Shown here: piece by piece, positions 52,769 to 64,000 of the stretch | Position numbering within the stretch: the stretch's first letter is position 1 | Layout: every line of letters starts with the position of its first letter | Source: a virus | IMG/VR virus record: IMGVR_UViG_3300045125_000031 | Location: 1-64,000 of that record | Length of the DNA: 64,000 bases | Strand: one strand, 5' to 3' | Position numbers and translations under genes: made by a program | The notes under the pieces: generated by a model | Database searches by the model: none | The model's input: only the letters and a program-made list of their open reading frames with translations | Told to the model about the DNA's origin: nothing

Positions 52769-53350
52769 TTATAGAGTTTGCCAATGTAGGTATTCTCTAA
52801 AATATCCATGCTGCATTACTGTTGGGTCTACCCACCAATCTTCATTGTAAGATCTTTGAACAAGGGCATATCCAAATGAATCAAGTATCTCTCTTTGTAC
52901 ATCTCTAATTTTACTATTTCTCCAATACATGTCCGAATCGTGTTCAAATGTAATTACGCTAAATCTGTATGTATTTAATGGCATTGCTATAAGACCTTGC
53001 AGCGTCAAATGACTATTCCCAACTGGCCTTCCTGCCATATCATATCCAGCGTCTATGTCTAATTGCAAATAGTCTATTTGTTTTGGAAAGTTATTTTTTT
53101 CAAAATAATCCATATAGTTAAATGATAGGGCATCTCCCATGCATGGATTCTTTCTATTAGCATTAAACTCTTCTTTCATAGAGTCTATTATTTCAAAAGA
53201 TACTCCAGTCCAATCATACTCATTTTCTAGCAAGTATGTATTATTACCATTGCTGTAGTGTGCTGCCCCAAGTTCTACATAGTATCCATTCTTTTTACCA
53301 TTTAAAATATTAATAATAAATTCTTCTTGCTTTGTAGTCATGTGTGTCAT
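52769..53350 (-). CDS. FkbM-family-like SAM-dependent methyltransferase
   Basis: Intact. I start at ATG 53350 (AAGGAGATTTATTTCA upstream), not 53395, giving 193 residues. The SAM-binding motif is GYYVELGAAHYSNGNNTYLL (motif I, V-E-L-G-A), followed by WTGVSFEIIDSM, NPCMGDALSFNYMDYF and PKQIDYLQLDIDAGYDMAG, which gives the D-x-L-Q-L-D-I-D strand 4 of FkbM proteins, and YRFSVITFEHDSDMYW. FkbM-type enzymes O-methylate hydroxyl groups, often on sugars or hydroxylated metabolites. It is the last gene of the oxygenase cassette, so methylation of hydroxyls installed by the neighbours is a natural guess. Confidence 0.65.
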   Translation of the reverse strand: MTHMTTKQEEFIINILNGKKNGYYVELGAAHYSNGNNTYLLENEYDWTGVSFEIIDSMKEEFNANRKNPCMGDALSFNYMDYFEKNNFPKQIDYLQLDIDAGYDMAGRPVGNSHLTLQGLIAMPLNTYRFSVITFEHDSDMYWRNSKIRDVQREILDSFGYALVQRSYNEDWWVDPTVMQHGYFREYLHWQTL

Positions 53351-53366
53351 TGAAATAAATCTCCTT

Positions 53367-53911
53367 TTAGTCTTGTCGGTTTTTTTCTGTTCCATGGATA
53401 AAAACGGTAGAGAAGTATCTTATTGTATCATCTAAAACTGGAAGAGATCCGTGAACAATGTGCCCTCCATGTATATATAAAGAATTAGATTTTGGCTTAA
53501 CCGTAATATTAATATCTGGATAGTCTAACTCTCCACCAGTATATTCATCATTATAATATAAACAAAAGCCATATCCAATATAATAGTCTATATCTGTTCT
53601 CCATTGATCTGCATGATGCGTTATAAAATCTCCTTTTTTATATCTCTGTAAATGCAGTTTATCTGGATAATAAGAATATGACTCAAATAAATTTTTCATT
53701 TTTTCATTTATATCGTCAAAAATATTTTTGTCTTTAAAGCATAAAGTTTTTCCAAACCAAAAATCTGGAATATTTTGTTCTTTTTTCATTTCTTCATCAA
53801 GCCATTTATCTTCTGAAGTATTTTTATAATTTTATTAACTTCAAACATTTCTTCATCAGTAAGAAAGTTATTAATTTCATACACATCATCATATAGTTTA
53901 TTAATTTTCAT
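53367..53911 (-). CDS. 2OG-Fe(II) oxygenase 8 (prolyl 4-hydroxylase type)
   Basis: About 181 codons. ATG 53911; one A lost near 53830 splits the first 40 residues (MKINKLYDDVYEINNFLTDE) from the intact rest. Iron site: His and Asp in ITHHADQW, distal His in HGGHIVHGSLPV, and the 2-oxoglutarate-binding Arg in DDTIRYFSTVF. The family's strand signature is YYNDEYTGGELDYPD. Prolyl 4-hydroxylase-type enzymes hydroxylate C-H bonds using O2 and 2-oxoglutarate. Shortest of the eight; overlaps the start of nothing and sits between the dehydrogenase and the methyltransferase. Confidence 0.82.
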
Positions 53912-53916
53912 TTTAG

Positions 53917-54586
53917 TTACATATACTTATTGTTAAATATATGACTTACCTCCAAGTGATTTATATTCATATGTTTTGGCAATGAGGCCACCCACCTAAT
54001 TGTTTCAGCCATGTCGTTAGCAGTAAGGGCATTATCTTTTTTCTATTTGTGTGTCAATTGTCCCTGGACATATTTCTGTTATCTTTATTCCATATTCAGG
54101 AAATTCCATACGCATTGTATCTATTAACGCCATTTGATCCTCGTTTGGCATTACTATAATTGCCTCCGCCTCTAAATGGAACTTTTCCACATAAAGATGT
54201 TATAAAGATAATTGTTGCAGACTCTGATTTTTTCATAGATGGAGCAAATAACTGAGACAAGTACATTGGCCCAGAAACATTAATATCATATGCTATTCTA
54301 AAATTTTCCATAGTTTCATTAATAATATGTGTTGGTCCAGAACCTCCGCCAGCATTATTAACTAATAAGTCTAATGTTATGTTTTTATATTTTTCAAAAA
54401 AAGTATTTAATTTCATTCTCTTTTGTTATATCTAATTTATAAATTTCTACCATTATCAGATAATAATCCAGACATTTTATCAACATCTCTCGAAACAGCA
54501 ATAACCTTATATCCGTTTTCAGATAAAAGTTTAACGGTTGCATAACCTACACCTTTACTTGCACCAGTAACGATGGCTGTTTTCAC
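53917..54586 (-). CDS. Short-chain dehydrogenase/reductase
   Basis: NAD(P)-dependent oxidoreductase, about 223 codons, GTG start at 54586 inside the previous stop. Cofactor motif TAIVTGASKGVGYATVKLLS; LDLLVNNAGGGSGP; catalytic Ser in ATIIFITSLCGKVPF; and Tyr/Lys in GGGNYSNAKRGSNG (Y-x3-K). The C-terminus PEYGIKITEICPGTIDTQIE is also typical. The complete N-S-Y-K set is present, so it should be active. Frameshifts near 54465, 54420, 54140 and 54040. In this setting it could oxidise a hydroxyl made by an oxygenase to a keto group, or process a sugar. Confidence 0.82.
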
Positions 54587-55317
54587 TACATGCCTTGCTG
54601 CTGGTTAAGTTGCATATTGTTATGTATCCAATGACCTGGGACCATATACTTAACACCAGACTTTACTGTATGTGCCGTATGAAAATATGGCGCTTCTGCT
54701 GGGAAAATAATAACGCTATTTGCTTTTGGTTTTATTCCGAAATCTATTGCATTGTTTGCAACAGCATCATCATAATCTAAATTAACTGGTGGAGCACCAT
54801 GAACCCATCCATCTTTGCTATTCCATCCACCATCATAATTTTTTAATTGAAAGGATATCTCTCCACCATCGCAGTCATCATTTAAATACATGACTAGAGA
54901 GTATCTCAAAGTCTTATCGCCATCTAATTGATCGAAGTGTGCACCCATTGCCATTCCAGTATAATATTTCTTAATATTAAATGTTGGGAATAGCCTTGGC
55001 TCGTCAAAATCACCTAGTGACTCTGCATAATCCTTACATACATTATATAGGGTTGTCATGACTGAATCATAAATATATTTGCTTTTTTCTCCAACTATAC
55101 CGCCAGACTTTGAGATGGCATCTATATCAAAAGTCTTTGTTTCTCCATAAATAAAATCTTTGTCATTAGAAGATGTCCACTTTTGCCAAAGATTAACCTT
55201 TGTATCATCATAAAACTCCATGGTATCTAACTCACTTAAAGTTTTTAAAAACACATCAAAGTTATCTATTGCGTCTGTATAATAATATACTTTTGGATCA
55301 AGAATTTCTCTATTCAT
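54586..55317 (-). CDS. 2OG-Fe(II) oxygenase 7, intact
   Basis: 243 residues, no frameshift. Iron ligands: GAHFDQLDGDK (H-x-D) and AEAPYFHTAHTV (distal His). Basic 2-oxoglutarate residue: Lys in SGVKYMVPGHW. Central signature LVMYLNDDCDGGEISFQ. Larger than its neighbours because of an insert KNYDGGWNSKDGWVHGAPPV between the signature strand and the GIKPKANSVIIFPA strand. Starts 2 bases after the preceding gene ends and shares its stop with the GTG start of the dehydrogenase. Confidence 0.86.
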   Translation of the reverse strand: MNREILDPKVYYYTDAIDNFDVFLKTLSELDTMEFYDDTKVNLWQKWTSSNDKDFIYGETKTFDIDAISKSGGIVGEKSKYIYDSVMTTLYNVCKDYAESLGDFDEPRLFPTFNIKKYYTGMAMGAHFDQLDGDKTLRYSLVMYLNDDCDGGEISFQLKNYDGGWNSKDGWVHGAPPVNLDYDDAVANNAIDFGIKPKANSVIIFPAEAPYFHTAHTVKSGVKYMVPGHWIHNNMQLNQQQGM

Positions 55318-55318
55318 T

Positions 55319-55977
55319 TTAATACCTATTTCTTTCGTAATGACCTATTTCTTTTATAAAGCCGACTATAACATATCTTATTGGCCCATCCCCTACATGC
55401 TTTACACCATGCTCTATACTCTTCATTTCCTGGAAAAAACAATAAGTCTCCTGGTTTTGGCCTCAATGATATATCTTTATTTGGAAAGAATAATTCTCCA
55501 TCTACGTAGTCATCATTAATGTATATTATTGTTGCATAGTGTATAGATGGATCTGTATGCTGATCAGTATGTGATTTCAGTTCTACTCCCTTTTGCATTC
55601 TTTGAATAGTGGCAAGCCCACTAAGTTCAAGTCCTGGGAAAGAAGGGTGAATTATATTTGCTAGTCTTCCGTAAAAACATTTTGTTCTGGGTGATGCTTA
55701 ATATTTAAATTTTTATCTACCCAATTTTGAGTAATTTCAAATTTCCCTTCAGCGACTAAGTTGTCAACATCTTCTCTGCCAAACTTTTCTAAACAAAATC
55801 TTTTTAGATTTCCCATATACTCTACTTCCCAATCTTCTTGAGACGCACCATTAATTATATTCCAAATAAAATCTAATTCTTCTTTTGTCAAAAAGTCTTT
55901 AATCCAAAGTAGTTCTGGAGTTACTTCTTCAAACTCTAAGTTATTATTTTTAAATTTTCTTTCAAAGAATCCATCAT
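55319..55977 (-). CDS. 2OG-Fe(II) oxygenase 6
   Basis: About 219 codons. ATG 55977, immediately after the preceding stop. MMDSLKENLK, then one A restored near 55950 gives LEFEEVTPELLWIKDFLTKE, DEFIWNIIN-type helix, and another join near 55655. Iron site: ELKSHTDQHTD (H-x-D), distal His in NEEYEHGVKHVG after repair near 55400, Arg in DGPIRYVIVGF. Signature YINDDYVDGELFFP; strand ISLRPKPGDLLFFPG. The short signature has V for G ('YVDGEL'), a small departure from 'Y-D-G-G-E-L'. Confidence 0.8.
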
Positions 55978-55978
55978 A

Positions 55979-56731
55979 TTAAACAGCATCTCCTTTAAAT
56001 AGATATTTATTGCCATCTTCATCTATTTTATATCCATCTTTTAGAAGTTCTTGCCATTCTGCTCTTTCAACTTCTTGCTTGGCTCTAGTCTCTTTCATTT
56101 CTTGCGCCCAAGCGTCTCTTAGTTCCTGTGGATATGCATCTTCTTCACGATCATCCCAGAATGAACCTATTGTATATCTAACTCCACTAGTTATAAGAGT
56201 TACCTCATGCATATTGTTGAATCCCCCGTCAAAAGCAGCAAGCATTCCAACTTTAGGCTTTATGCTTATTTGTTGATCTGGGAAATGCAAAAGTCCTCCA
56301 TCAAAGTTATCATTCAAATATAAAAATGCAGCATATCTACTTCTAGTAAATGCTCCAGAGTTTCCGTGTTCATCTGTATTATCAGAATGCTTTCTAGCAT
56401 AAGCCCCTGGTTCCCATTTCTGAGTATGATATCCAATTTGAGATATTATCTTTGAATCTAAATCATGAACGCTGGCAACTGCTTCTACAATACCCTTTTT
56501 AATTGTGTAAAAATATCAGAAGGTAAACCTTCGGCAATTACATGCTCGTCGTTATCTTGTGGCAAAACAGAAGAATAAGATTCATAAAACGATATAGGCA
56601 TCCAACTAATGGTCCCTATTTCTGCATGTTTATCTAAAACTTTTATAAGTTTATCGGCAGTTTTCAGAATCAATAAAGTTTTCATAAACAACTATATCTT
56701 TTGTTAGTCTAACTTTATTTTCTAAGTTCAT
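55979..56731 (-). CDS. 2OG-Fe(II) oxygenase 5
   Basis: About 250 codons, ATG 56731 (GGAGTTAGAATTAG upstream; overlaps the previous stop). N-terminus VRLTKDIVVYENFIDSENC and ISWMPISFYESYSSVLPQDN. Iron site: YARKHSDNTDEHG (H-x-D), distal His in GFNNMHEVTL. Arg in SGVRYTIGSFWDD. Signature LYLNDNFDGGLLHFPDQ. A charged C-terminal extension (WAQEMKETRAKQEVERAEWQ, DGYKIDEDGNKYLFKGDAV) is absent from the other seven except the one upstream. Frameshifts near 56660, 56490 and 56320. Confidence 0.82.
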
Positions 56732-57604
56732 CTAATTCTAACTCCTTCGATTGAATCTTTATTTGCAGCATATTTGCCTATCATCTCTTTATGTAATTTA
56801 GACCAACTTTCAGTACCAAGTTCTTTTTCTTTATCAAACCACTCCTGATCACCTATCTCCATATTTTTTCAAATAGTTTCTTATTAAGTATTTTTCTGTT
56901 TTAAAAGATGGGAAAACGCCATGTAAGTAAGGTTGATTATTTTTATTTAAAACATCTGGGTGTCCACTAGGGAAAACTACCCAATCACCTGCAACTGGTT
57001 TATACTTTATTAGATTACCATCTATATAAAAGTCAAGTTCTCCTCCATCATAATCATCATTAAAATAATAATTAGCAGTTATTGCAAACTTATAGCCTGG
57101 ACTTTTTACTGGCTCTCTTACATAATCAGAATGATATCGCATTGACATTACAGTATCTATATTTTTATTATATCTGCATATAGAAGGTCCTTCTTTTTTC
57201 CATAAAGGCAAATAATTTCCATCATGGTCTTTTGTTATTTCTTCTTCATTATAATTAAACATGTCTTTATATTTAGAAATATATGCGTCCATAGTTTTAT
57301 TAAAACCATTACTTATTTCTAACAAAAGATATTTTTGATCTTCTTGTATTTTACTATTAGTTTTTAAGTCATTTATCAATTGAGAATTAAATTCAGCAGG
57401 CTTTCCTGTTTTTGGATTTAATTTAGAAAGTTCTGGAAAAGCAGTCTGAATATAACGACCAAAACCTTGCCAATCAGACCATTCTCCTAAAATTCTATCT
57501 GAATTATTGTTAGCAGATTCTTTAACTATCTCATATAATCTTTCTGGTTGATCATTAACATTTTTATATATCATTATGTTTTCATATAATTCTATCTCTT
57601 CCAT
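56728..57604 (-). CDS. 2OG-Fe(II) oxygenase 4
   Basis: About 292 codons, ATG 57604 after GGAGATAATA. A long N-terminal helical part (NDLKTNSKIQEDQKYLLLEI) precedes the fold. Iron site: SMRYHSDYVRE (H-x-D), distal His in NQPYLHGVFPSF; Lys in KTEKYLIRNYLKK. Signature NYYFNDDYDGGELDFYID. The open frame ends at 56849, but one A removed from the A-run continues it as MEIGDQEWFDKEKELGTESW to a TGA at 56728 that overlaps the next ATG. I read the longer form; a separate 45-codon gene is the alternative. Confidence 0.82.
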
Positions 57605-57606
57605 TA

Positions 57607-58364
57607 TTATCTCCTTATTCCTTTTTTTGGATCCCAAGACTTTACTTCTTCTTCTGTAGGAAAAATTCTATGGTACTTTGTATTTGGGTCTGGTTTTACA
57701 TCTCCAGTATGCTCTAAAATTTCCCAGAAAAACGGACATGTATATCTTAAAGATTTTGTGACTTCTGTTACTCCATGTACATAGTTCATGTCTCCTGGGA
57801 AAAAATATGCCGAACCACGTTTTGGTTTAAATTGAACTTTTTGATATGGAAAGTATAACTCTCCACCCTCATAATCATCATTGATGTAAAATAAACTTGA
57901 AATATCATAATATGGAAAATCGTTTGGTAATCCAGCATCTGATCCAAAATGCAATTCTTTGTCTGCGTGAGGCATTTGGAACTGTCCTGGATTCCACTTA
58001 ACAATTGTTTGTCCTGTAGACTGTACTTTGACCTTAAAAAAATCTTCAATAATTGGTTGAAGTCTACTAAATAATCCTACTAAAACTGGAAGAATTTTTG
58101 GATCATTTGCATTTAAAGATGGCGCAGTTGCAACTCTATCTTTCCAATAACTTGAATCATAAATAACAGTTCCATTTTTCATTTATATGGCTTTGAGTAA
58201 CATCCCAGATAGTTATGTTTCTTGCTGCTTTTTCTAAAAAATCAACTTCTTCTTCAGTCATAAAATTTTTCTAACTCAACTATATTTTCAGCACCATAGC
58301 CAAAAAACCCAGATGGGGTGATTGATGGATGTCTTATTACTTTTACTGCATCTTCTGGTATCAT
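57607..58364 (-). CDS. 2OG-Fe(II) oxygenase 3
   Basis: About 252 codons. ATG 58364: MIPEDAVKVIRHPSITPSGF, FFGYGAENIVELE; frame joined near 58265 to MTEEEVDFLEKAARNITIWD and near 58190 to the intact 191-residue remainder. Iron site: FQMPHADKELH (H-x-D), distal His in MNYVHGVTEV; Arg in KSLRYTCPFFWE. Signature LFYINDDYEGGELYFPYQ. The C-terminus (HTGDVKPDPNTKYHRIFPTE) is a Pro/Lys-rich tail. An extended -10 box lies directly before the ATG and there is no ribosome site. Confidence 0.83.
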
Positions 58365-58370
58365 ATTATT

Positions 58371-58379
58371 ATTATATCA
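58371..58379 (-). promoter_or_regulatory. Extended -10 promoter, near-leaderless
   Basis: Minus strand TGATATAAT, TATAAT at 58376-58371. The predicted start falls at or within a base or two of ATG 58364. No Shine-Dalgarno and no -35 are seen. The region is AT-rich, so chance is possible. Confidence 0.4.
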
Positions 58380-59083
58380 TCCTATAGTATTATCTTTTAC
58401 GTATAATTTTAGGGTTTTTACTTCATGAGACCCTACAGATTCATTCTTTTCATTTACCGCATTTCTATACCAATCGGTCCAGTTGCCAGATGAATTAAGC
58501 ACTTGTGCTGCTTCTCCGTAGGCAATGTTTGCATTTGTTCTAGAACGATCTACATCTTTATATTCTACAATCTCAATTGATGTATTATTTAAATTTGTTA
58601 AAGATATTGGAATAATTGTTGCAATAGGAGTTCCTGCTTTTATAATAGTTTCTACGTTAGCCTTTTTGCCTTAAGAGCAAGAGGCAACGGGTTATCATAA
58701 AATGAAGTACTTATTACACTAGACATAGTTTCAAAGTCATCATTAAAATAATTAACTGGATGTATTGTCCAAATACTAACATCTGGATCTGTTCTAAAAA
58801 CCAAAGAAGTGTTTAAACTTATTGAAGATTGACCTCTTCCAGAGTATGAACCTGATGGACTTACAATCTTTATATGCTGGTCTGTCTGATCATTTATTCC
58901 ATCCCACGTAAAAACTATATCTTCTGAACATGAAAGATACCAACCTATAACATTTGACTGAGTTACTGGAAAACATCTATATGCGTGGTTTTCAGACGTT
59001 AAGTCCATCCAATCTCTTTTAATTGACATTGGTTCGATGTTAAAAATACATCCCTGCATTTTTTCAACAGTAATATTAAACAT
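58377..59083 (-). CDS. DUF6065-like protein, second copy
   Basis: About 235 codons with one frameshift near 58660. MSIKRDWMDLTSENHAYRCF followed by TQSNVIGWYLSCSEDIVFTW matches the 'R-D-W-M-D-A-T ... A-Y-R-C-x-P ... N-x-x-G-W' opening I associate with DUF6065. Later: SLNTSLVFRTDPDVSIWTIH, IKAGTPIATIIPISLTNL, DRSRTNANIAYGEAAQVL and WTDWYRNAVNEKN. DUF6065 genes often lie beside 2OG-Fe(II) oxygenases and sugar or peptide modification genes as I recall; the biochemical role is not known to me. Its start overlaps the stop of oxygenase 2. Confidence 0.6.
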
Positions 59084-59766
59084 TATTCATTTGCCCACTT
59101 TGGATCATACATATCTGGTGTATGATATTTTTACCTGTAATCTAACATTGTTACAATTGAATATTTAGTTCCAGAGTGTACTGGCATTGCTTGATGTGGA
59201 TACATAAAATTTGACGGGAAAACATATAGATCTCCAGCCTTTGGTTTTATATTTAGATTTTGCAGTCTAAAGTATAACTCTCCACCATCGTAGTCGTCAT
59301 TAATATAGGCAACTAAGGAAACGGTACAGTTATAAGAGAATCCATGGTCATGGTGTTCTTTGAAGTGTTGGCCTGGTCCATACTTGATAAAGTTAAGGCT
59401 TCCCAATATTTTAACGGCATAATGTTGTAATCTCTACGATAATCATCTACTGCTGCTGCCTGTGCATCATATACATCTTGCCAAATTCCCTGAAGCAATA
59501 AAGAGTCCTTGCTTGGATCTGATTCAATATCAGTTTTCTTAAACTTAAAGTCATAGCAGTCACGATAGTCTGGCATTAATTGTTGATATCCTACATATGC
59601 TGGTAGCCAGTGATAAGGCTTACCCTCTGGAGATAATTCCGCCCCATGGTGCTGGAGAACCCAAAATATTTTCTAATCTTTCTATAATATTTAGTTCTGG
59701 CTTAATGACACCTCTATAGCAAGTAATTCCAAACCCTAATGTTTCTTTTTCTGTCCAAGTTGACAT
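59083..59766 (-). CDS. 2OG-Fe(II) oxygenase 2
   Basis: About 227 codons, ATG 59766 after AAAAGGAGATATC. N-terminus MSTWTEKETLGFGITCYRGV, then DFKFKKTDIESDPSKDSLLL. Iron site: HFKEHHDHGFSYN (H-x-D), distal His in NFMYPHQAMPVH; Lys in SGTKYSIVTMLDY. Signature LVAYINDDYDGGELYFRLQN. An in-frame TAA after MLDYR (59133-59131) is followed in the same frame by YHTPDMYDPKWANE and a stop at 59083 that abuts the next ATG (TAATG), so I place the true end there. Frameshifts near 59640 and 59400. Closest in motif to oxygenase 1. Confidence 0.82.
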
Positions 59767-59777
59767 GATATCTCCTT

Positions 59778-60554
59778 TTACCTATACTCTCTTCTTGTCC
59801 AAACTTTATCTTTATATACCCCGCCATCTGGTTGACGATAAATATTTGCGTTATCTACTATTTTAGCATATACCGTTGATGAATCAAGAATATCAAGTTC
59901 GTGTCTCCCAATTTTCTCTTTTAAATGGGAGTATCTGCAAGTATGGTGTTCCTGCTGGTATAGTTCCCTCCCAACCTTCAATAATAAAAATGGAAAACTA
60001 CCTAATAATTCAACTTTATCTGAATCTACTACGCCAGTAGTATTCATAAAAGGTAGATCAAACCTATTCATAGGTGTCATAAATAATGCACTATAGCCTT
60101 CTGGTAACTTCATGCCCCAGTCTGGCATCCAGGCAAAATGATCTTTGTAATATCCTTGAGGATGTTCAAATTGTGCCATTGGTGGTCTAGATGTACAAAA
60201 ATCTCGATACATTTGATTTCTATTTTAAAATCTAAAGATCCTTTATTATTTTTAGTAAATGTAATGTCAGTTGAGTTCTAAATACATATCCAGTTATAAA
60301 GGCATCCATGATTGCTGGACATGCTTTCTCATGTAGGAATCATTCCATAATCATCTGTAGTTCCAGATTTTGGAAATGGACAAACCTCTTTGGGGCCTTA
60401 TAGTATTCTCCATTAATTGGATTTTTAGCAAACCTATCAGCATCCTTATACCATTGAGGTATTTCTTTTTGTGTAGGAGTTGGGGCAGATTTGCTTTCTT
60501 TGTTAGCCAAGGACGGTATGTCTTAAAAGAGACACTTTTTATATCATCGGACAT
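59778..60554 (-). CDS. DUF6065-like conserved phage protein, first copy
   Basis: About 259 codons. MSDDIKSVSFKTYRPW, then after indels YKDADRFAKNPINGEYYKAP, IPTWKACPAIMDAFITGYVF, MYRDFCTSRPPMAQFEHPQG, HFAWMPDWGMKLPEGYSALF, MTPMNRFDLPFMNTTGVVDS, GTIPAGTPYLQILPFKRE. The plan 'A-C-P-A-x-x-D-x-x-x-x-G-Y', 'L-P-E-G-Y-S-A-L-F-x-x-P-x-N', 'G-x-V-D-x-D' and 'I-P-A-G-T-P-x-x-Q' parallels DUF6065 and its gene context. It is a conserved hypothetical next to hydroxylases in other phages as I remember. Starts inside the end of oxygenase 1. Confidence 0.5.
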
Positions 60555-61267
60555 GCTGATGACCTAACTCATTAATATCAGTCATGATTACGACACAATA
60601 CTTTGTACCGCTCTTCATAGGAAGAGACGCATGCTCATAAATGTAGTTAGATGGGAATACAGCAATATCTCCAACCTTTGGTGTAAGAGTATAGCCGTCT
60701 AATCTTGGAAATTGTATTTCTCCGCCTTCGTAGTCATCATTGATATAGATAACAGCAGAGACAGTTGCATTATATGCTGGACCATGATCTGCGTGAATAT
60801 TAAAGTGTTTTCCTTCGCCTTCATATTTTACAAAATTAAATGCTTCATAATAAATAACATTAATTCCCCAATAACGTGCATAATCATCTATACAAAACTT
60901 TAATTTTTGATAAATTTCTTCATGTAGGTCATAAGTTCTCCATTAAATCTCATCTCTGGGGCCAAGATTTTCTTGCTTGTATTTAAAATCTACAGCATCT
61001 CTTGCTCTTTTAATTGGTGTTGTAGAGTTTGTAACCTGTGCTTCTGACCATTTGTATCTTTTTGTTCCATCTAAATTTGATTCAAGTATTTTAATATATC
61101 TGTCAGCATCATCTTTACTAAAAACATTTCTATAGACGTTTAACCCAAGTCCAGGATTTTCTACAACTATACCATTTGGTAAAGTTTTTGTTGGATATCT
61201 TGTTTGATGCAGTTTCTGAACGATCTTTAGTAAACCAAGGATTCTGGTTTTCATCATAAATTTCCAT
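60544..61267 (-). CDS. 2OG-Fe(II) oxygenase 1
   Basis: About 241 codons from ATG 61267. First part: VENPGLGLNVYRNVFSKDDA, ADRYIKILESNLDGTKRYKW, RARDAVDFKYKQENLGPRDE; second: YARYWGINVIYYEAFNFVKY. Iron site: HFNIHADHGPAYN (H-x-D), distal His in NYIYEHASLPMK; Lys in SGTKYCVVIMTDIN. Signature AVIYINDDYEGGEIQFPRL. Frameshifts near 61210 and 60945. First of the eight in transcription order, and like oxygenase 2 followed by a DUF6065-like gene. Confidence 0.84.
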
Positions 61268-61292
61268 ACTGACTAACCTTTCAAAGTTAAAG

Positions 61293-61731
61293 TTATGCTA
61301 CTGTGCTAAAAGAGGTTCCGTCCCTGTTGTATGTTTGTCCAACATATACAGTTTGTCTTTCTGGAATCTTTGCTAAGATCATACCTGCAGCATTTGCAGC
61401 AGCAAACATCTCTGCCTTTGGACCTTCTGACGGTACTGCCATTCTTGCAACAACAACATTGTTAGATAAGAATGCATACAAATTAAAAGAATCTAATTGC
61501 TCTTGTGTAGCATTTAATAGATTAGGGACCTGCAGTTCCTCCAGAAAATGATGAGCCATTGAAAGTTGCTCCATGAAGTGCTGTTTGCTTATATGCACTT
61601 GCATCAATTGCTGAAATAGTTGCTCCAGTTTCATAAACTGTATCAAGATTATCCATTACCTCTGGCTTATTGCTTGAATATATTCCAATAACATCATAAG
61701 CATCATTGTTTTCTACTAATATTGCGTACAT
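61293..61731 (-). CDS. Small Ala/Ser-rich structural protein
   Basis: About 146 codons, ATG 61731 after AAAGGAGATTATTA; one indel near 61530. MYAILVENNDAYDVIGIYSS, ETGATISAIDASAYKQTALH, LNATQEQLDSFNLYAFLSNN and KIPERQTVYVGQTYNRDGTS. Beta-strand pattern with a Q-T-V-Y-V-G-Q-T-Y end. Has its own promoter. Could be a small virion or fibre-associated protein; no recognised family. Confidence 0.5.
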
Positions 61732-61771: not shown

Positions 61772-61805
61772 TTAGTAGGGGCATATCTTCATATACCCCC
61801 ACTAA
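61772..61805 (-). terminator. 15-bp hairpin after the Phe-Phe-Pro protein
   Basis: Minus strand TTAGTGGGGGTATAT-GAAG-ATATGCCCCTACTAA. All 15 pairs form on the minus transcript, two of them G-U; on the plus strand the same two would be A-C mismatches, so the hairpin is tuned to the minus transcript. No T-run follows, so it is either a U-less terminator or an RNA-stability element. Confidence 0.6.
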
Positions 61806-61807
61806 TT

Positions 61808-62780
61808 TTAACAACCGCATGATCTTCCTGGACAGCATACGCTACATCTCCAACAATATCCACAGAAGCAACTTCCGCCTCCGCCACCAGATGGTGGTGG
61901 TGAGAAACTTGGTGGGAAGAATGGGAAGAACGGGAAGAATGGGAAGAACGGTGGGAAGAATGGGAAGTAAGGGAAGTAAGGGAAGAACGGTGGGAAGAAT
62001 GGGAAGTAAGGGAAGAATGGGAAGAACGGTGGGAAGAACGGGAAGAATGGGAAGAATGGGAAGAATGGTGGGAAGAATGGGAAGAACGGAAAGAATGGAA
62101 GAATGGTGGGAAGAATGGGAAGAACGGGAAGAATGGGAAAAACGGCGGGAAGAACGGGAAGAATGGTGGCGTGGTATTAACACTATTTGTAGTTACACCA
62201 GTTGACTCTCCACATGCATTTGTAAGATAAATTGTATAAGTTTGAGAACCTGGGATACTCCAGGGTCGTTAGCAGTATATGATGTGCAGAACCAGATATA
62301 CCAGTATAACTTGATCCATCCGAACCAGTGATTCTGATTGATGTTGATTGCAGTACCTCCAGTTGCTGATCCTGCTGGAAGAGTCCATGATATTGTGTTT
62401 GTGTTAGCAGATGTAGCAGATGCTGAAACACCTGTAGGATTGTTTGGTCTTGTTGTAACTGTTACGGAAGATGAAGCAGATGATGCTGCTGATGTTCCAG
62501 AAGCATTAGTTGCTGTTACTGTAAAAGTAGGTGTTGTTCCTGCAGCAATTCCAGTCACAGTAATTGGAGATGATGCTCCAGTTCCTGTTTGACCAGTGCT
62601 TGCTGTAACTGTATAAGATGTTGCTGGAGGAGAACCTGCGGTAATTCAAATGGCAACTGACACAGCACCATCGTTGTATGCTCTACCACTACATGTTTGT
62701 TGGAACAACACTTAATTGGTGGCTTTGGCTCCAAGAAGTCATTTGCTGCTGTGACTTTCTACCTACTTTTTAGTTGCCAT
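61808..62780 (-). CDS. Fibronectin-type protein with (FFP)n repeat and Cys-rich tail
   Basis: About 322 codons from ATG 62780: MATKK, VTAANDFLEPKPPI, then fibronectin type III-like sequence SPPATSYTVTASTGQTGTGA, AGTTPTFTVTATNASGTSAA, TISWTLPAGSATGGTA, SQTYTIYLTNACGESTG. From 62169 to 61911 six 13-residue units P-(F/Y-F-P)x4 and a partial one follow (about 26 F/Y-F-P triplets). The end is PPSGGGGGS and then CFCGYCWRCSVCCPGRSCGC: eight cysteines in the last 20 residues, TAA at 61808. Frameshifts near 62760-62640, 62370, 62255 and 62100. Probably a virion fibre or tail protein; the aromatic-proline rod may be a binding or polymerising surface and the Cys tail could be cross-linked or bind metal. 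Confidence 0.6.
61911..62169 (-). repeat. 39-base tandem repeat encoding PFFPFFPFFPFFP
   Basis: On the plus strand the run of gggaagaat/gggaagaac triplets with ggtggg every 39 bases. On the minus strand each unit is P plus four F-F-P triplets; two units replace Phe by Tyr (YFP), and one base is missing near 62100. Seven units counting the short first one. Confidence 0.88.
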
Positions 62781-62803
62781 TATTTATTCCCCTTTACTGT
62801 AAA

Positions 62804-64000
62804 TTACTTAAGATCTCCGTAAACAATCCAGGTATTTGCTGCTCTCTTCAATAGAGTTGCAGATGACCATTGTGTACGTAGAGTTAATCCTGGAGTAGCA
62901 TTTACAGTTACTCCTGCGCCTGCTGCAATTGCAACTGCGCCTGTATTTGTCTGAAGAACATCTGATAGAAGTTCCTATTGGGAAATTCGAGGTCGACTGC
63001 AGGAATTGTAACGTTTACTGCTGAACCACCAGTGTGAGAAACCTCAATAAGTGAATCTCTTTCGAGTAATGCTCGCAAGAGTACTACGCTGTTTTTCTGA
63101 ATAATTGGTGTTCGTGAAGGTACACCTTCCTTTGTTTGTGTTCCGTCTCGTAAATGCAACACCGCTTGCTGCAACGGTTACTGTTCCAGTAAATGTTGGT
63201 TTTGCAAGTGGTGCTTTTGCTGCAAGAGAAGTTGTTGCAGTTGTAGCAAAGTTTGCATCGTCACCAAGTGCTGCTGCAAGTTCATCAAGAGTGTTGAGTG
63301 CTGCTGGAGCAGATGCGATTACTGCATTTATTGAGATGTTGCATCTGCAATTGCTTCTACTTTGCAGTTGCGATTGCTGTTGACTTGTGCTATTGATACT
63401 GGCTTATTTGGCATCTGATGTGTTGTCAACATTGCCAAGACCTACCATTGACTTTGTAACACCAGATACTGTTCCAGTAAATGTTGGTGATTCAAGATCT
63501 GCCTTTGCAGCAAAGACTTGTTGAAAGTCCATCAATCTTGACTGTGCAATTGCTGCTGAAGCATTAATATCAGCATTTACAATTGTGTCCGTTTTCAATC
63601 TTTGCAGATGTAACGGCTCCATCAACAATCTTTGATGTTGTTCACAGAGTCTCCGCAAGTTTGTCTGCGGTTACGTTGGAGTCAACAATCTTTGCAGTTG
63701 TAACTGTATTATCTGTTGGTGTTCTTGTATCTGATAAACGAGCATCGTCTGTAAGCACAAGATCTGCAGTATCTAAAATTCCATGTATGTTTGTTGTGTC
63801 TGCTCTGTATGATCTTCAATTTCTGAAGACAAGGCCAATGCTGATGTATCGTCAATTCCATGTACATTAGTTGTATATGATCCATGTGTTGAAATAGCAT
63901 CAGTTACATAAGATTCTGTTGCAAGTTCACCTGTATCTAAAATTCCGTGAACATTTTGTGTAAGTAAGTTATGAGTTCCTACTTCACCAACTGCTGCGGT
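62804..64000 (-). CDS. Tail fibre protein, 5' part beyond the window
   Basis: C-terminal 398 codons or so of a tail fibre; the start is outside the window. Repeats of the type NVHGILDTGELAT and NVHGIDDTSALAL occur three times (63950-63770). Then VTTAKIVDSNVTADKLAE, INASAAIAQSRL, TFTGTVSGVTKSMVGLGNVD, NTSDAK, LDELAAALGDDANFATTATT, GVPSRTPIIQKNSVVLLRAL, and a C-terminal beta module ending ANTWIVYGDLK at 62804. The 'T-F-T-G-T-V ... G-L-G-N-V-D-N-T-S-D' segment is a hallmark of phage side-tail-fibre shafts. Frameshifts near 63650, 63540, 63400, 63330 and 63150. Confidence 0.78.

Follow-up and report, generated by a model that had tools for sequence, protein, structure and literature searches.

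The window, a stretch of 64,000 nucleotides at the start of a 101-kb virus record (G000; IMG/VR IMGVR_UViG_3300045125_000031), carries a minus-strand gene whose product has two fibronectin type III (fn3) domains, followed by an (FFP)4P rod and, at the C-terminus, the tail CFCGYCWRCSVCCPGRSCGC (Table 1). Translated from about 62122 to 61808, its end reads ...PFFPFFPFFPPFFP...PPSFSPPPSGGGGGS-CFCGYCWRCSVCCPGRSCGC-stop, with a glycine hinge between rod and tail and a stable hairpin directly after the stop. The first-pass annotation, made from the sequence alone, had already described the rod, hinge, tail, and hairpin, and its observation of a Phe-Phe-Pro rod with a Cys tail is real; it had missed that the protein has fn3 domains, that tips are swapped between phages, that a second protein has a matching tip, and that a cluster of prolyl-hydroxylase-like genes lies nearby. 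Genes upstream of the rod gene match the tail fibre and minor tail families of PHROGs (the rod protein itself has no PHROG), and downstream the usual order is rod gene, a gene for a 145-amino-acid protein, and then a row of oxygenase genes.

Table 1. Features at and around the rod gene (positions within the window)
Feature	Position	Strand	Basis
Upstream tail-fibre gene, 3' part	62800..64000	-	Relative L008:1857-4070 matches Mtd_N (PF18454) and PHROGs minor tail / tail fibre
fn3-rod-tip gene	61808..62780	-	Translation; start ATG by comparison with L008/L012/L047
Two fn3 domains	62175..62720	-	Pfam fn3; AlphaFold/Foldseek on L047 relative
(FFP)4P rod, 39-base repeat, base missing near 62090	61906..62170	-	Tandem Repeats Finder (TRF), translation, family comparison
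Gly5 hinge	61876..61890	-	Translation
Cys tip CFCGYCWRCSVCCPGRSCGC	61811..61870	-	Translation, relatives
Terminator-like hairpin 3' of stop	61772..61805	-	Fold -25.5 kcal/mol, z -5.6
145-aa protein (MYAxx), next gene, frameshifted here	61293..61731	-	Intact as L008:5149-5586; no Pfam match; weak phrog_14370
2OG-Fe(II) oxygenase domain, first of cluster	60589..60837	-	PF13640, 46.6 bits
2OG-Fe(II) oxygenase domain	59152..59394	-	PF13640, 60.1 bits; nearest solved structures of L008 relative are prolyl 4-hydroxylases
DUF6065 protein within oxygenase cluster	58652..59083	-	Relative L008:7797-8504 matches PF19541, E 2e-26
2OG-Fe(II) oxygenase	57607..58182	-	Relative L008:8517-9272 matches PF13640
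2OG-Fe(II) oxygenase domain	56162..56422	-	PF13640, 40.2 bits
2OG-Fe(II) oxygenase domain	54637..54975	-	PF13640, 38.9 bits

In G000 itself, the frame of this gene is broken; a single base has been lost near 62090, placing the first repeat units in another frame, and additional frameshifts lie in the fn3 part. Uninterrupted homologues are ca. 325 amino acids long and begin MA(N/T)KKVGKKS.... Ten of the 18 loci returned by the viral-contig search, all on other IMG/VR contigs and some near-identical to each other, have intact ORFs of 313 to 345 codons in which the MA(N/T)KK... start is followed by two fn3-like domains, the rod, and the same tail. Given these intact ORFs, the frame breaks in G000 look like record errors. 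The frame originally proposed was thus right, and the intact relatives settle it, although it is not continuous in the record from which it was read. Several single-base frameshifts fall between 61000 and 62790 of the window, in genes that are uninterrupted in relatives, and the record as a whole looks error-rich.

The base of the protein was recognized as a tandem of fn3 domains by two routes: the Pfam fn3 profile scored 26.1 bits (cut-off, 25) on the window fragment, although only 19.7 bits on the L008 relative, and AlphaFold predicted two confident beta-sandwich domains (pLDDT >90) for the L047 relative, the top Foldseek match of this model in the PDB being a tandem fn3 pair (E 4e-11). Structure prediction had been proposed as a check on the rod and tail. 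In practice it was informative for the fn3 part only; in the same monomer model, the rod has no defined structure (pLDDT ca. 43), and the tip reaches a pLDDT of ca. 60 to 73.

Over the rod (61911-62163), Tandem Repeats Finder counted 6.5 copies of a 39-base repeat (90% matches), corresponding to a unit of 13 residues in which the first place of the triplet is sometimes Tyr. The strict period claimed at the outset holds for this locus but not for the family, in which mostly one to four FFP triplets stand between PP pairs. Among 72 distinct rod ORFs, Tyr occupies the first aromatic position 180 times and the second position never, and a purine (A or G) is the last base of 88% of the Pro codons, which argues that the rod is not selected as a DNA polypyrimidine tract. 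The pN/pS of the rods is 0.06, a figure in which only F/Y changes are countable because F and Y were treated as one residue when the rods were grouped. The repeat is not collagen-like: its triplet is (F/Y)-F-P, and Gly makes up 33 of 6854 rod residues. It might be argued that the repeat is a DNA artefact or mis-assembly without protein meaning, given the noise in G000 and the frameshift within its repeat, but the rod pattern occurs in at least 120 viral stretches (2.9 million viral contigs searched), with intact ORFs, synonymous variation, and the Tyr position rule. The intact relatives refute such an artefact, and its probability is in our view vanishingly small.

The first-pass annotation had suggested a search with the repeat and tail, and this placed both patterns in viral stretches only; neither the exact rod pattern nor the exact tail pattern occurs in 84,980 prokaryote genomes, and a host-derived protein was rejected on this ground. 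Pfam returned no match for rod plus tail, and blastn of the region against known isolated phages returned none either. With tblastn, three fn3-rod head types found no relative in 50,697 phage records, a search in which the low-complexity filter hides the rod itself. A fourth, intein-tipped query matched Erwinia phage tail proteins in its intein-like part only, and there was one weak, unannotated head match. The Phe-Phe-Pro rod protein is real, widespread, and, within the reach of the searches, undescribed.

The 20-residue tail with its eight cysteines, read in the translation here, is conserved in relatives. A pattern scan of viral contigs found it in 26 stretches, and the same Cys pattern is encoded by 18 distinct tail DNA sequences (pN/pS, 0.21); the search pattern fixed six of the eight cysteines and left the last two free, yet these are invariant. 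Chance or a DNA-level repeat was rejected on the basis of this pN/pS, the two invariant cysteines, and the 180:0 distribution of Tyr. Across the family, the rod ends include 27 Cys-spacing patterns, intein-like domains and their degenerate forms, and short peptides (e.g., PYFTLPGVV and KWDPQLG). The number of cysteines is even in all 27 spacing patterns and in 58 of 58 distinct Cys tips, which are not fully independent observations. When whole proteins were counted, three (L058, L061, and L096) had an odd number (seven) if read stop-to-stop and six once Met-trimmed.

Since closed pairing predicts an even number, these counts point to disulfides. Of the three ideas put forward initially for the tail (a covalent cross-linked knot, a metal cluster, or a membrane-insertion tip), disulfides are the best supported, although intramolecular closure would fit better than the cross-linking then envisaged; for a cystine knot or knottin, the even count is necessary but not sufficient. 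Membrane insertion is without support, and in sister proteins this site bears either an intein-like domain or a short charged peptide. Some tips lack Cys altogether, so the role would not depend on disulfides in all phages. A metal-thiolate cluster of the metallothionein type would suit a tail that is 40% Cys with CxC, CxxC, and CC motifs, and even Cys numbers are compatible with tetrathiolate sites. However, the same place is also taken by tips with two or four cysteines that are spaced quite differently. There was no Pfam match up to E 1 (the shortness of the segment limits sensitivity), in line with the original remark that the tail resembles no known zinc ribbon, the PDB sequence search gave only a chance rubredoxin fragment (E 0.74), and neither search yielded a metallothionein. 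We consider a metal cluster very unlikely.

Some of the alternative tips resemble HINT/intein domains. They match Hint models and the Intein_splicing profile (E 2e-8; 34.6 bits, just below the cut-off of 35.8) and share with inteins an N-terminal Cys and a C-terminal HN, but most are without the block-B histidine and some without the Cys; among seven aligned, only L078 keeps Cys1, the TxxH block, and the C-terminal HN together. Because of these losses, many intein-like tips probably serve in binding and not in splicing. Intein/Hint-like C-termini, with the block-B His mostly lost, were seen on the rod proteins L078, L114, L060, L154, L159, L053, and L126. In Erwinia phage Y3 (KY984068), the annotation of a related tail protein mentions an intein domain. 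The rod proteins L075, L100, and L108 end in YSS(K/E)RFK.., which by eye resembles the start of the peptidase S74 chaperone domain.

The rod end is a cassette site at which tips are interchangeable between phages. Unrelated tips sit on heads that are 90 to 96% identical (e.g., L067/L056, L160/L095, and L136/L056), and all three kinds (Cys-rich, intein-like, and short peptide) are swapped on near-identical heads. Within one genome, by contrast, the tips of different proteins match. G000 encodes a second, intact protein (L198) that has no fn3 domains and bears the same 8-Cys tip at 74736-74770 (ca. 74.7 kb, outside the window); it has a tail-protein-like N-terminus, (VAPSPAAP)n rods, and small Cys modules and then ends in CTCGYCWRCNVCCPGQTCAC. 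Its relative in G001 matches the minor tail family phrog_8780. Matching tips on two proteins of one phage were found in eight records, four of which are related. The 8-Cys tip is on both proteins in G001, G003, G016, and G000 (61.8 and 74.7 kb), G006 and G018 each have similar intein-like ends on two proteins, and both proteins end in PYFT[IL]PG in G007 and in PYFAF[EG]ATRR in G019. No clear mismatch was seen among the records with two tip proteins, G005 being ambiguous. The tip DNA of the two G001 genes has many synonymous differences, and the match is therefore not just the result of recent copying. The second rod protein of G006 (L175:7355-8335) has, by eye, a PASTA-like N-terminal segment instead of fn3.

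We infer from this matching that all appendages of a virion are under a single constraint, set probably by the host or by a partner that they share. Alternatively, the tips could be assembly signals rather than receptor binders, docking tip to tip or onto a virion component that they have in common, with the Cys tips cross-linking appendages by intermolecular disulfides; the match across otherwise unrelated proteins of one genome would then be expected, and the CxC and CC pairs would be suited to cross-linking. Yet wholesale swapping on near-identical heads is typical of host-recognition parts and not of virion docking, the strictly even Cys number fits closed intramolecular pairing better than cross-linking, and non-Cys and intein-like tips take the same place. 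We regard assembly signals as unlikely and favor host recognition.

Behind the rod gene, and in the records examined nearly always on the same strand, lies the oxygenase cluster. In the window it occupies 53000-61300 of the minus strand, interspersed with DUF6065/phrog_7084 proteins, and its order is conserved across several phages examined. The 145-amino-acid protein encoded between rod gene and oxygenases was not seen in L023, which has the PYFTLPGVV tip. PF13640 scored over its cut-off in all 24 rod records (6 to 14 genes each) and in none of 12 random viral records, the controls being fewer than the rod records and mostly shorter. Of the 177 oxygenase genes in 22 records, 149 sit no more than 10 kb downstream from the rod gene, where 37 would be expected under a uniform distribution (counts are from a home-made profile, with G006 counted from its second rod gene, as the first is cut by the stretch boundary). 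In L008, PF13640 exceeds its cut-off in three genes, and the HxD...H motif with the basic 2OG-binding residue can be read directly in four proteins; the nearest solved structures of the cluster oxygenases in the PDB are prolyl 4-hydroxylases (P4H). The 2OG-FeII_Oxy_3 domain and the motif place these neighbors with the P4H enzymes, with prolyl hydroxylation as their putative activity. WhiB genes occur in 8 of the 24 rod records, which suggests actinobacterial hosts for those eight.

The cluster may nonetheless be unrelated to the rod, serving metabolic or other modifying functions and merely lying beside a host-recognition module. Marine cyanophages carry one to five 2OG-Fe(II) oxygenase genes, and in one case 24, and in 2022 their viral roles had not been specifically investigated (PMC9602691); the enzymes here could have a different substrate or be the marker of a phage lineage. 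Against this, the genes adjoin the rod gene, nearly always on its strand, they are P4H-like, and Pro, a residue prone to hydroxylation, recurs throughout the rods. An unrelated cluster seems to us somewhat improbable.

Taken together, we favor, with slightly better than even confidence, a tail appendage that combines a proline-hydroxylated rod with a disulfide-locked, receptor-binding tip. The protein would be a tail-associated short fibre of a tailed phage, its base formed by the N-terminus and the two fn3 domains. The (FFP)nP segment, with Phe or Tyr in position 1, only Phe in position 2, and Pro in position 3, would form an extended, probably polyproline-like rod. The 20-residue tail would fold as a very small domain with four disulfides, formed once the virion leaves the reducing cytoplasm, and would bind the host surface; the 145-amino-acid protein might be a partner of some tips. 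Tips are exchanged between phages while base and rod stay constant, and the tips on different appendage proteins of one virion would match because all of these proteins act on one host. The P4H-like oxygenases encoded behind the gene may hydroxylate the prolines of the Phe-Phe-Pro rod, and also those in the second appendage, whose rods are (VAPSPAAP)n or (PT)n; both kinds of rod would thereby become stiffer and soluble.

A broader, albeit more speculative, possibility, to which we give somewhat less than an even chance, is a widespread class of appendage outside the known fibre folds, with a hydroxyproline Phe-Phe-Pro rod made by a row of viral hydroxylases dedicated to it and swappable, disulfide-locked host-recognition tips, one kind of tip per virion. 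As a structural repeat of proteins, (F/Y)FP would be new. Aquatic phages commonly encode 2OG-Fe(II) oxygenases, which are poorly understood, and a proline rod encoded directly before the cluster is a concrete, testable candidate substrate for them. The tips, if the proposed role is true, would be among the smallest host-recognition domains, swapped like cassettes, and could help to assign uncultivated phages to hosts.

Several known systems share single features with this one. Extensins, the hydroxyproline-rich wall proteins of plants, likewise combine Pro/aromatic repeats with prolyl-hydroxylation machinery; their repeat is Ser-Hyp4, whereas the present proteins are viral and use Phe, and we recognized no Tyr cross-link motif. 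Knottins and conotoxins are hypervariable peptides of 10 to 30 residues with an even number of cysteines, as are the tips, but here the peptide is the end of a putative virion rod and packs eight cysteines, with CxC and CC, into 20 residues; no sequence match to them was found. In viral collagen, a Pro-containing three-residue repeat is encoded close to prolyl/lysyl-hydroxylase-like genes. The rod gene and its neighbors resemble this arrangement and that of collagen-like phage proteins, but the rod has no Gly-X-Y, is shifted in register by an additional Pro that follows one to four triplets, and has aromatics at two of three positions. Isolated Planktophila phages are reported to have collagen-like genes near the tail fibre, in a text that nowhere mentions fibronectin, oxygenase, or proline (PMC10202952). 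The literature searched, mostly from outside subscription journals, held nothing on point about Cys-rich or Pro-rich phage fibre tips or about hydroxyproline in phage fibres. With phage tail fibres that have exchangeable receptor-binding C-termini, the rod proteins share a conserved N-terminal part, a variable C-terminal tip, and a site behind tail-fibre genes. Because virion location and function are both inferred, we class the rod proteins with these fibres as a variant. They differ from them in having a Phe-Phe-Pro rod rather than a beta-helix, coiled coil, or collagen, and in a tip that measures only ca. 10 to 30 residues, is often Cys-rich, and recurs on several unrelated proteins of the same genome.
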